From: Brachyspira pilosicoli
GTDB taxonomy: Bacteria; Spirochaetota; Brachyspiria; Brachyspirales; Brachyspiraceae
Direction: 5' to 3'
Length of the DNA: 25,909 nucleotides
Assembly (NCBI RefSeq): GCF_019402445.1
Contig: NZ_SRZM01000308.1
Span: 1 to 25,909 of the forward strand
A program made the translations under genes and the position numbers. The notes beneath the pieces are model-generated. The model was not told where the DNA came from and ran no database searches. It worked only from the letters and a program-made list of their open reading frames with translations. Position 1 is the first letter of the stretch. The number at the start of each line of letters is the position of its first letter. Shown piece by piece: positions 4,595 through 23,924 of the stretch.

Positions 4595-5458
4595 ATGATT
4601 AATGTACTATTAGTAATCATAGCTTCTATTGCCTATGGTTTTCTTCCAATATTTACAAAAAATATTATAAAAGAAAATTATTCATCTGTAGCTATAGTTT
4701 TTTATAGATATGCTTTTACAGCAATATTTTTATTTTTTATAATTCTAATAAGAAAAAAAAGTTTTAAAATAGATAAAAGACAATTTTTTGAATTAATTTT
4801 ATTTAGTATAGTAGGGCTTGGCTTAACATTTTTCTTTTTATCGCTTTCTTTATTATATATATCAGCAGGGCTTACCAATATGATTCATTTTGGATATCCT
4901 GTTGTAGTAATTATATTAATGGCTATAGTCTATAAAGAGAAAATTAATATATTAAAAATAATCTCTGTAATTTCTGCTATTATTGGGATAGTACTCTTAA
5001 CTAGGGTTGTAGAAGTGGAATCTTTTAAGGGTGTAATATATGCTTTAATAACCACAGTAACATATGGAGTTTATATTATATCAAACAAAAAGGCTTCATT
5101 TGCCAAACTTGATACTATGGTTTCGCTTTTTTATATGTCTTTGTTTGTATCTATAGTATTTTTTATATTTGGTATAGCAACTAATAGCCTAAAAATGATT
5201 GACAGCATAAATGTATTTAATAATTTTATTGCCATATCTCTGCTTTGTACAATATTTTCTTTGGGGCTTTTACTTTATGGAGTAAAACAATTAGGCTCTT
5301 CACTTGCCTCAATATTAAATATGTTTGAACCTACAACCACAGTAATAGCTTCTATATTTATCTATAATGAAACTTTAACTATTAATATATTACTAGGTTC
5401 TATTCTTGTTGTTTTGTCTACGGTGTTTATGATAATGTCGTCGAAAATAAAAAGCTAA
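4595..5458 (+). CDS. EamA/DMT-family permease
   Basis: 287 residues with about ten hydrophobic segments arranged as two EamA halves of five (roughly residues 1-135 and 145-285). Typical family features are the N-terminal YGFLPIFTK segment, the FYRYAFTA motif after TM1, and the second-half YGVYIISNK and MFEPTTTVIASIFIYNE blocks. Members are inner-membrane exporters or importers of small metabolites such as amino acids or nucleosides; the substrate cannot be read from sequence. The ATG lies 1 nt after the lpxD stop, so it is almost certainly co-transcribed and translationally coupled. The downstream gene-free region is a repeat array rather than a simple terminator. A second, different EamA protein occurs at 11415. 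Confidence 0.88.
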   Translation: MINVLLVIIASIAYGFLPIFTKNIIKENYSSVAIVFYRYAFTAIFLFFIILIRKKSFKIDKRQFFELILFSIVGLGLTFFFLSLSLLYISAGLTNMIHFGYPVVVIILMAIVYKEKINILKIISVISAIIGIVLLTRVVEVESFKGVIYALITTVTYGVYIISNKKASFAKLDTMVSLFYMSLFVSIVFFIFGIATNSLKMIDSINVFNNFIAISLLCTIFSLGLLLYGVKQLGSSLASILNMFEPTTTVIASIFIYNETLTINILLGSILVVLSTVFMIMSSKIKS

Positions 5459-5462
5459 AACA

Positions 5463-5547
5463 TTTGCACTTTCGCGAAGCGTGCCCGAAGGGCGAAAACT
5501 TTGACGGAATCCGCACAGCGTAGCTGCGGGAAAAGTTAATAAAAAAT
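5463..5547 (+). repeat. Repeat module A, copy 1
   Basis: G+C-richer than its surroundings. It opens with TTGCACTTT, passes through AACTTTGACGGAATCCGCAC, and closes with GCGGGAAAAGTTAATAAAAA. The arms AACTTT (5497-5502) and AAAAGTT (5531-5537) can pair around a nested CAGC/GCTG hairpin. A GCCC-GAA-GGGC hairpin lies just inside the 5' part. The same module recurs at 5766, 6051, 23439 and 23732. Confidence 0.8.
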
Positions 5548-5624
5548 AATTATTTTAATATATACTAAAAATTTTAAGTCTGTGAAAATTCTGTTTTTAT
5601 GTTTTTTATTGCTTTAGGGGACTA

Positions 5625-5694
5625 GCCACCAAATACACAGATCTTTTGCGACCGTAGGAAGTGCCTTCGGTATTGCTACAAAAGAACTGCATTA
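5625..5694 (+). repeat. Repeat module B, copy 1
   Basis: The core CTTTTGCGACCGTAGGAAG reads into a CCTTCGG half-hairpin and ends with ACAAAAGAACTGCATT. The CTTTTG/CAAAAG arms bracket an inner stem of the CCG-AAGG kind. It is homologous to the modules at 5885 and 23578, sharing the TTTTGC...AAAAG-ACTGCATT frame. Confidence 0.75.
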
Positions 5695-5765
5695 TTTAGA
5701 TTTAAATGTTGGTATTATGCTATAGTTTATACATATTCCTAAGATATTAGCTATAATATGTGCGT

Positions 5766-5807
5766 TTTTTGCAACTTTTTTGAGCGACAAAAAAGTTGAA
5801 TAAAAAA
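5766..5807 (+). repeat. Repeat module A, minimal copy
   Basis: GCAACTTTTT (5771-5780) and AAAAAAGTTG form a hairpin with a short TGAGCGAC loop, followed by AATAAAAAA. This is module A with its G+C-rich apical insert missing. The copy at 23732 is nearly as short. Confidence 0.75.
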
Positions 5808-5884
5808 TTATATAATAAAATATAGTTATTTTAGAATATATTGATTTGAGTTTATCAGAAAATATTTTTTAAGTTTTTTATTTT

Positions 5885-5970
5885 GTGGTGACGTTGCCCC
5901 ATGCCCATACTTCTTTTGCCGAATAGGTACCTACTCGGTGGTGACCCAAAGAAGCAAAAGGACTGCATTA
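5885..5970 (+). repeat. Repeat module B, copy 2
   Basis: It starts near GTGGTGACGTTGCCCC, contains ACTTCTTTTGC, a GGTACC-centred hairpin (CCGAATAGGTACCTACTCGG), and ends ACCCAAAGAAGCAAAAGG plus ACTGCATT. The last ~25 nt match the inverted copy at 23578 almost exactly. Confidence 0.8.
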
Positions 5971-6050
5971 AAGAAACTAACTTTTAAGTATATCCAAAAT
6001 ACTACATTATTCTATATTAATACATATTCCAACATATAGAGTAAAAACAC

Positions 6051-6166
6051 TTGCACTTTTTATTTCTTTTACAAAGTCTGCACCGCGACCGAAGGAGTAC
6101 CTTCGACTGAAAGAAGTACCTTTAGGTATAGGTGCGTAGCGGCGGGAAAAAGAACAACAAAAAAAT
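6051..6166 (+). repeat. Repeat module A, long copy
   Basis: It opens with TTGCACTTTT and ends with GGCGGGAAAAAGAACAACAA. The apical part is extended by a CGAAGG...CCTTCG hairpin and further AAGTACCTTTAGGTA sequence, making it the longest of the A copies. It ends 11 nt before the stop of the convergent radical SAM gene. Confidence 0.75.
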
Positions 6167-6176
6167 TGATAAAAAT

Positions 6177-7109
6177 CTATAAAAACTTACAACCTTGCTT
6201 CAACTCTCTCTCTGTCATCAATTTGTTTATAGAATTAATTATTTTGCCTTTAGATTTTTTCCATTTCGGAGCTATTAAACTATCTCCTAAACTGTCTCCC
6301 ATAATCCTTGAAACTATTATATCTTCTCTTAAAATAGATATAGCATCAGCCATAAGCTCTATATAAAAATCTTCATCAAGCGTAGGAAAATCATAATTTT
6401 TATACATTGCTTCAAAAGCACTACCTACTACAATATCAAGCTGATGAAACTTCACACTGTCAATTTTTAAATTAGAAATGTCCCTCACCGTTTGAAGCAT
6501 CTCTTCTCTTGTTTCTAAAATTATTTTTTTTCCATCTATTTTTTTAGGCAAACCAAATATTATATGAGTTGATATTATAAGATTGCTGTAATTATTTTTT
6601 ATGTTTTCTGTCATATTAGCAAACGACTCAAAATTATGTCCTCTATTTATAAAAATAGAAGTATTATCATTTGAAGATTGAAGCCCCATTTCAAGCCATA
6701 TCTCTTTATTATGTTTTTTTGACAAATTATTTAATTCTAAGAGCACTGCCTCTTCAAGCATATCGCTTCTAGCCCCAAACATTAAACCTACACAATCCTC
6801 AAACTCAATTAATTTATTGGCATATTTAAGCGATTCTGATGAAGCTAATTTTGATAATGGAGTGCCAAGCTGAAAATAAGCATAATATTTTTTGTATCTG
6901 TTTTTATAATTATTTATGCCATTTATCCATTGATTTTTTATATCATCTTCTTCTACATACGGAGGTTTATAACTATTTAAATTGCAAAATCTGCATCCTC
7001 CATTATTAGCCTTATGAGCACAGCCAAAATCTGTGTCTATAGAAATTTTACCAACCTTAAAACCGAATTTCTTTTTTACATAATCAGAAAAACTATAATA
7101 ATTTTGCAT
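6177..7109 (-). CDS. TIGR01212-family radical SAM protein (YhcC/YtqA type)
   Basis: 310 residues, the normal length for this Elp3-like family. The cluster-binding motif near the N-terminus is CAHKANNGGCRFC (C-x8-C-x2-C, about residues 30-42), preceded by GKISIDTDFG and followed by NLNSYKPPY. Later blocks include YFQLGTPL, GARSDML, WLEMGLQSS, FINRGHNF, THIIFGLP and VKFHQLDIV, all typical of the family. These enzymes bind a [4Fe-4S] cluster and cleave S-adenosylmethionine; the physiological substrate is not established. The ATG follows the smpB stop by 2 nt, so the two are one transcription unit. The 3' end abuts the A/B repeat array, with no separate terminator. Confidence 0.9.
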   Translation of the reverse strand: MQNYYSFSDYVKKKFGFKVGKISIDTDFGCAHKANNGGCRFCNLNSYKPPYVEEDDIKNQWINGINNYKNRYKKYYAYFQLGTPLSKLASSESLKYANKLIEFEDCVGLMFGARSDMLEEAVLLELNNLSKKHNKEIWLEMGLQSSNDNTSIFINRGHNFESFANMTENIKNNYSNLIISTHIIFGLPKKIDGKKIILETREEMLQTVRDISNLKIDSVKFHQLDIVVGSAFEAMYKNYDFPTLDEDFYIELMADAISILREDIIVSRIMGDSLGDSLIAPKWKKSKGKIINSINKLMTERELKQGCKFL

Positions 7110-23367: not shown

Positions 23368-23438
23368 ATTTATTAGTTACAATAAACTAAATTAAAAATA
23401 TTTACAGCGATTTAATTTTTATTTATATAATTTTTTTA

Positions 23439-23499
23439 TTTTATTCAACTTTTTCCCGCCTTAGCGGTGCGGACTTCGTCAAAGTTGCAAAAAATGCAA
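23439..23499 (-). repeat. Repeat module A, inverted copy
   Basis: On the minus strand it reads TTGCAACTTTGACGAAGTCC, then GCACCGCTAAGGCGGG and AAAAAGTTGAATAAAA. It is closely related to the module at 5463. CAACTTT and AAAAAGTTG form the base stem, with CCGC/GCGG inside. Confidence 0.8.
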
Positions 23500-23577
23500 A
23501 ATATTTTAGTTTTATATCTAAGAAATATATAAATAATATATTGTATTTTTAACTATATCTAAATTGTACTTCATAAA

Positions 23578-23690
23578 AATGCAGTCCTTTTGCTTCTTTG
23601 GGCCACGTCTCCGACACTCCCTTCGGTCGCAAAAGAAGTGGGGTGCTGCACGGTGTGTACTTCGTTAAGGGCAAAGCCCTGCAAATATTT
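23578..23690 (-). repeat. Repeat module B, inverted copy, plus adjoining hairpin
   Basis: On the minus strand the core reads CACCCCACTTCTTTTGCGACC, then CCCAAAGAAGCAAAAGGA and CTGCATT, matching the copy at 5885. The segment 23656-23690 adds an AGGGC-AAA-GCCCT hairpin. Short open frames here arise only from this G+C-rich block. Confidence 0.78.
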
Positions 23691-23731
23691 TTATTTAAAA
23701 AATATTCTTTTGATATTAATTTATATTTTTG

Positions 23732-23774
23732 TTTTATTCAACTTTTTCCCGCTGCAAAAAGTTGCAAAAAGTAC
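23732..23774 (-). repeat. Repeat module A, minimal inverted copy
   Basis: On the minus strand it reads GCAACTTTTTGCAGCGGG followed by AAAAAGTTGAATAAAA: a CAACTTTTT/AAAAAGTTG stem with a GCAGCGGG loop. It is the counterpart of the copy at 5766. Confidence 0.8.
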
Positions 23775-23924
23775 AAATTATTCAAGTTATTCAGATATAC
23801 TTTGCGAAAGTGAAAATAAAAATTATATTAAATTATATTAATTTTTATTTTATATACAGTATAATTCATTAAAAATATTTTTTATAAATTTGAAAATTTT
23901 TAGTATATAGATAAGATGACTATA

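Follow-up and report, generated by a model that had tools for sequence, protein, structure and literature searches.

The window analysed here, a stretch of 25,909 nucleotides of Brachyspira pilosicoli DNA (contig NZ_SRZM01000308.1), carries an EamA transporter gene on the + strand (4595..5458; Pfam EamA, E 6.5e-37) and, convergent with it, a radical-SAM gene on the − strand (6177..7109; Pfam Radical_SAM and Radical_SAM_C). The gap between the two consists of repeated hairpin sequence throughout, in which three A-like and two B-like modules alternate between 5463 and 6166. The A-B-A-B-A order given in an earlier note on this DNA is present, with all five modules on the + strand. That note had, however, described A and B as two separate modules, with an AT-rich spacer from each B to the next A. 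The spacers are not random, and we rejected the reading of two independent modules because the linker from B to A is conserved in sequence and the A-to-B spacer is a junction of transposon ends. A and B are instead the halves of one unit of ~300 nt, in which two ends enclose, in this order, the B hairpins, a linker and the A hairpin. In a plain repeat search the shared pieces of the array appear as short two-copy families, and Rfam covariance models applied to the whole window at the gathering score returned 16S rRNA only, with no match under the name BOX.

We searched the window with a unit profile built from 32 whole copies taken out of three sister genomes, which resolved the array into one 3′ half-unit followed by two head-to-tail whole units. 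The half-unit (5459..5547, +; unit profile 5442-5547, E 6.7e-13) begins immediately past the EamA stop codon and comprises module A1 (5463-5542; A profile match 5498-5546, +, E 2.9e-7) and the start of its end. Transposon ends are fused at its junction with the second unit (5541..5586, +), where the left end, TATATACTAAAAATTTTAAG, is clear and the right-end half is weak (scores of 47 fused, 41 left and 20 right, against 99th shuffle percentiles of 28, 25 and 22). The second unit (5554..5838, +; unit profile E 3.3e-30) contains module B1, a degenerate double hairpin with an exact ACTGCATT tail (5613..5696, +; B profile E 0.0058), an internal B-to-A linker (5697..5760, +) that lies within the unit match and belongs to a linker family conserved in sequence, and module A2 with its CAACTTTTT/AAAAAGTTG stem (5761..5806, +; A profile E 1.1e-4; fold z -2.58). 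At the junction of the second and third units (5817..5857, +) the right end is clear and the left-end half weak (29 fused, 28 right, 22 left; thresholds 28, 22 and 25), the fused score lying barely above the cut. Each junction in the window thus has one clear half and one worn half. The third unit (5844..6174, +; unit profile E 2.1e-41) ends beside the radical-SAM stop codon and holds module B2 (5883..5970, +; B profile E 1.6e-12) and module A3, which has an enlarged hairpin apex (6051..6162, +; A profile 6051-6088, E 9.2e-6, and 6136-6162, E 0.049). Both B modules are detected where the note had placed them, but the first is degenerate. The base stem that it assigned to module A, CAACTTTTT...AAAAAGTTG, is found in the middle copy only; the first copy has AACTTT...AAAAGTTA and the third has TTTC...GAAC arms. 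A weak antisense match of the unit profile at 6185-5860 (E 0.0022) was set aside. A second small tandem array occurs elsewhere in the window on the − strand, where a further unit (B, linker, A; 23400..23713, unit profile E 9.9e-51) has a 3′ half-unit directly before it (23721..23812, −, E 4.2e-13).

Downstream of the radical-SAM gene, the window's own genome and genomes G011, G012, G013 and G016 hold differing arrays, and among the 13 of 26 loci listed eight other Brachyspira loci showed no array by eye. The gene beyond the array (window 4595-6176; loci L057-L060) was identified by eye as EamA in the window's own genome and G012 and as RND-type (AcrB-like) in G011, G013 and G016, so that gene order breaks at the array. 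Between A- and B-like pieces downstream of the radical-SAM gene, L057, L059 and L060 also contain a third hairpin module (GCACTCCCCCGCACGACTAAG...GTGCGGCAAGG); at L060, in G011, the radical-SAM frame itself has one internal TGA and one internal TAA. Upstream of the gene, at L068 and L078 (G009 and G025), inspection by eye suggested a candidate cobalamin riboswitch.

Covariance models, seeded with 24 copies of B and 17 of A, found both modules in 23 of 26 Brachyspira genomes and neither in the other three (G001, G003 and G019), when the best 135 and 150 scored candidates per genome were considered. Across 198 evenly drawn genomes of the phylum, B was found in 23, all belonging to one genus of 104, under stricter filters that lose weak matches. 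The B tail CAAAAGRACTGCATTA (≤1 mismatch) has 26 matches in the window's own genome and 0 for the reversed pattern; eight of these matches are no more than 40 nt from the end of a contig. At E ≤0.1, 800 kb of G011 and G013 yielded 65 matches to B and 67 to A, and an nhmmer search of 400 kb of G011 gave 29 A and 28 B, which extrapolates to ~180 of each in its 2.56 Mb; for counting we used profiles made from the 52 best model matches, with which 123 of 132 model hits are recovered. The earlier note would have counted its idea refuted if a genome-wide search placed A and B independently of each other or showed stems without paired changes. The idea withstood this search, which found a preferred order and spacing throughout the genomes and stems changed on both sides. 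In 1.6 Mb of G011, G013 and G016, 132 of 135 pairs of neighbouring modules (≤200 nt apart) share a strand; 76 pairs are BA, 50 AB, 3 AA, 3 BB and 3 on opposite strands, with a median gap of 65 nt from B to A and 61 nt from A to B. The only opposite-strand neighbours are divergent A-minus A-plus pairs (L108 2444-2592, L114 13589-13762 and L141 2555-2772; G011 and G013). The modules of this 1.6 Mb form 134 clusters, among them 32 BA, 10 AB, 29 lone B and 24 lone A, and together the cluster and pair counts suggest that the unit is B-A and that many copies are partial. The repeat gives the genomes that carry it hundreds of homologous same-strand tracts, on which rearrangement could plausibly act and at which assemblies could break.

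The flanks of the clusters have outer sequence in common, to the left of B and to the right of A. A fuzzy search with the first end consensus gave 25 matches, against 1 for the reversed pattern, in 800 kb. A single terminal repeat as the only end was replaced by two end types after an insertion sequence (IS), described below, came to light. The right-end pattern (≤3 mismatches) is present in 22 of 26 genomes, and its reversed control gave 0 matches in all 26. Allowing ≤8 mismatches, we found 190 ends and 16 reversed-control matches, 53 of the 190 having no module within 110 nt; a search at ≤12 mismatches proved useless (2.88 per kb vs 2.79 for the reversed control) and its labels were discarded. 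Inverted terminal repeats bound short elements: 64 distinct end pairs span 153-400 nt with a median of 302 nt, a range partly set by the 60-450 nt search window. Modules are enclosed by 58 of these pairs (both A and B in 26, B in 19, A in 13) and the remaining 6 enclose neither. A fused right-plus-left end scored above the 99th shuffle percentile at 32 of 50 A-to-B junctions but in only 1 of 74 B-to-A linkers, the test having kept 74 of 76 BA and all 50 AB intervals after exclusion of lengths outside 30-160 nt including flanks. An alignment of 60 distinct linkers, drawn from gaps of 50-95 nt, gave no consensus fold for a third hairpin. The unit is thus a hairpin body (B, linker, A) set between a ~31-nt end of one type and a ~31-nt end of the other.

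Among the 26 genomes the transposase domain DDE_3 occurs in one (G015) and DDE_Tnp_1 in four. The DDE_3 remnant of G015, whose DNA also bears the name Brachyspira sp. G79, is an IS630-like gene with internal stops that lies between one end of each type (the left end identified by eye). Since this gene is broken and was found in one genome of 26, most carriers either lack the partner or have it outside their assembly. DNA of the G015 IS has matches in at least 21 of the 26 genomes, mostly to its ends among the matches listed. IS ends at contig edges in G014, G023 and G024 have 0-1 (right) and 1 (left) mismatches to the unit-end consensus over 31 positions. In G024, 9 of 17 IS matches start ≤3 nt from the first base of their contig, which would fit a multi-copy IS collapsed in assembly. 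No intact autonomous copy was seen whole among the Brachyspira genomes examined. A genome-wide scan for the helix-turn-helix ORF of the IS returned two G015 remnants only; the G015 ORF falls below profile cut-offs, and a 92-aa relative, which is annotated in B. hyodysenteriae and has a count of 74 contigs, passes the HTH_23 cut-off. DDE_Tnp_1 was considered as the partner of the main unit and rejected, its loci bearing the other end type. At one of them (L243) a 303-aa ORF (466-1377, −), which by eye resembles an integrase-type transposase, lies just upstream of the DDE_Tnp_1 remnant and is perhaps a separate IS inside it. Neither DDE_Tnp_1 nor DDE_3 was found in G014, which holds 245 main-family ends, or in G006, which holds 255 ends of the second family described below.

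We next compared orthologous sites between sister species; clusters at the ends of stretches or without matching flanks gave no comparison. Within the G011/G013/G016 group the partner has no modules in 12 of 65 ordered comparisons, in which one site may be counted from several sides. The clearest case is G016 175611, where a 302-nt insert with both ends is present relative to G013; at the same site G011 has the identical two ends and a different inside. In G007 and G009 the partner is free of modules in 6 of 14 comparisons, and at least one of these holds another repeat instead. At the readable sites the inserts measure 302, 214, 388, 184 and 197 nt, of which the 214-nt insert is at the same site as that of 302 nt and the 184-nt insert is a second-family unit; G016 150871 and G016 74125 are left out because their alignments were unreadable. 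G016 369141 was discarded as an empty site in G013, where end-like sequence is still found. The alignments at readable sites have no target-duplication overlap, and their flanks are too A+T-rich for a TA duplication to be judged. At some matching sites the modules have opposite orientation, as at g11 127623 (B+A+) and g13 333158 (A-B-), which may reflect inversion or re-insertion. The paired ends, the agreement of these ends with a Brachyspira IS, and the sister-species sites without the unit support the non-autonomous mobile unit that the earlier note had listed among its possibilities.

The orientation of the body relative to its ends was counted with outward-facing ends only, at ≤8 mismatches. 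In G011, G013 and G016 the end 5′ of B is of the left type in 28 cases and the right type in 6, and 3′ of A it is right in 30 and left in 8. In G007 and G009, by contrast, the right type lies 5′ of B in 16 cases and the left in 4, and the left type lies 3′ of A in 18 and the right in 3. These counts indicate that the body is turned relative to the ends between the species groups, and that each group includes a smaller number of bodies turned the other way. The group of the window's own genome is presumably B. pilosicoli-like. A second family of ends, TAGACTTGTTTCAAAACT (≤2 mismatches), was detected in all but one of the 26 genomes, with 255 matches in G006 and 13 reversed-control matches over all 26; these ends are unrelated to the IS630-type ends. 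Of nine distinct second-family pairs within 450 nt, eight enclose B, one encloses neither module and none encloses A, and longer nested cases exist. In G012 and G018, DDE_Tnp_1 remnants are closely followed by a near variant of the TAGACTTGTTTCAAAACT end, and from these two loci DDE_Tnp_1 may be the partner of the second family. It is conceivable, although we regard it as rather doubtful, that B is a cassette of its own carried in two MITE families, which probably use different transposases, and that the body can turn between IS630-type ends, the groups having settled on opposite orientations. If so, B would either parasitise other parasites or be a structure under selection, as RNA or as cruciform DNA, of benefit to any element that hosts it. 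A single hairpin body common to two types of transposon end offers a testable case.

Could the host have selected these hairpins? The earlier note had suggested an RNA structure at transcript ends, in which transcribed hairpins would stop or protect messages, and the location agrees with this. By simple ORF calls, 258 of 269 modules are intergenic, compared with 10.6% of random 70-mers. The same calls place the 134 clusters in 57 convergent, 63 codirectional and 14 divergent gaps, against 143, 509 and 191 of 843 background gaps of ≥40 nt, so that convergent gaps are enriched and divergent ones scarce. This convergent bias fits insertions tolerated away from promoters as well as it fits any 3′-end role, and beside codirectional genes there is no strand preference (35 clusters on the opposite strand, 25 on the same). 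The stems seem to be maintained in base-paired form, as either DNA or RNA. Their arms were altered on both sides: the 85 A copies that could be parsed have arms CAAC/GTTG (43), GTTC/GAAC (27), GTAC/GTAC (2) or hybrids that break pairing (13), and the outer pair of 95 parsed B copies is C-G in 48, G-C in 40 and something else in 7, with 51 of 136 A and 38 of 133 B copies unparsed and left out. In model-fitted alignments there are 46 both-sided changes in A and 21 in B, compared with 19.3 and 8.3 in shuffles that leave relatedness in; further pair types in A show no excess (5 vs 5.1 shuffled), and the two types of arm could represent a pair of old subfamilies. The claim that structure keeps the stems alike is favoured by paired swaps in the arms but not by folding energies, which are mostly ordinary, and strong folding was dropped as support. 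Folded as single RNAs, the five window modules have z of -0.60, -1.24, -2.58, -0.03 and -1.98, only the middle A and perhaps the last module folding better than shuffles, and the modules at 23.4-23.7 kb have -0.09 and -1.28. Terminator anatomy is also missing. An intrinsic terminator, a G+C-rich stem with a T run, was rejected, there being no T run in the array, and 5300-6400 contains 0 terminator-like sites, a weak test since shuffles average just 0.4. Promoter-like sites in the same interval number 4, against 5.3 in shuffles. A host RNA role was favoured by no test, and with sister-species sites empty or otherwise filled we consider a 3′-end RNA structure unlikely as the explanation of the array.

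Local tandem amplification alone, by slippage or unequal crossing-over without transposition, would account for head-to-tail units at near-constant spacing and for a module number that varies per site between species (six at g16 348002, two at g13 678102). Copies are nonetheless dispersed over the genomes and occur as single inserts within otherwise matching flanks, which makes this process very unlikely as a full account, though it may be what enlarged stacks after a first insertion. Less likely still are protein-binding palindromes of the REP/BIME type, which would be sites for nucleoid proteins or gyrase dispersed in some other way: like these, the modules are dispersed, intergenic and palindromic and favour convergent gaps, yet neighbouring copies in a cluster keep one orientation (same strand in 132 of 135 pairs) and the unit ends are of the IS630 type. 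The array is, as judged from sequence comparison, very probably a stack of an IS630-type MITE family moved in trans and piled up at its own ends, with a RUP-like way of working and a BOX-like modular body. We favour this reading because the ends are those of an IS630-family IS, the units are dispersed between genes, sister sites are empty or differently filled, and A-to-B junctions carry fused ends. An IS630 transposase would have bound the unit ends and moved the units in trans, and new units may then have entered the TA-rich ends of resident ones to give head-to-tail stacks; alternatively, units could have multiplied within stacks through unequal recombination.

The repeat is high-copy in much of the genus, and yet it is unmentioned in the literature that we found: neither the open literature searched nor the excerpts consulted of Brachyspira genome papers (PMC2650404, PMC2897892, PMC3532143, PMC3163572, PMC8116685, PMC3587939) describe such an element. 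In its excerpt, PMC8116685 cites a tandem-repeat typing scheme for B. pilosicoli, which might use some of these arrays. The nearest relative in kind is RUP of S. pneumoniae, given in source excerpts as 107 bp with 108 copies (PMC2229807) or as 110 copies in one genome (PMC3049150). To the extent that these excerpts describe it, RUP, with its IS630-Spn1, and the Brachyspira unit are both short and intergenic, the unit being apparently free of genes as RUP is, with IS630-family-like ends, TA at the ends and about a hundred copies. Compared by description, the Brachyspira unit differs in being ~3 times longer and in having a multi-hairpin body, two end types and habitual head-to-tail stacks. Clustering itself has precedent, since BOX, RUP and SPRITE cluster and insert into each other according to the excerpt of PMC3049150. 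With BOX of Streptococcus pneumoniae, as far as its excerpted description goes, the unit has in common a modular hairpin body of variable module number, but by description what is repeated here is B together with A, set between transposon ends. The Correia/NEMIS element of Neisseria is, in the excerpts, a MITE with TA ends and 24-bp TIRs, noted for promoter formation and RNase III cleavage (PMC2229807, PMC3049150). The Brachyspira unit-end consensus reads outward TTGACA-N17-TATATA, a promoter likeness that holds for the consensus only; in the window promoter-like sites do not exceed shuffles. Closest to home, the unit and the IS630-family IS of Brachyspira are alike at both ends to within the single mismatches given above, but the unit is without the IS gene and its hairpin body was not seen in the IS DNA. 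The kind of element is thus known, a MITE with IS630-type ends; what is new is the large modular body, the frequent stacking, a body orientation that varies between species groups, and a B module common to a second type of end.
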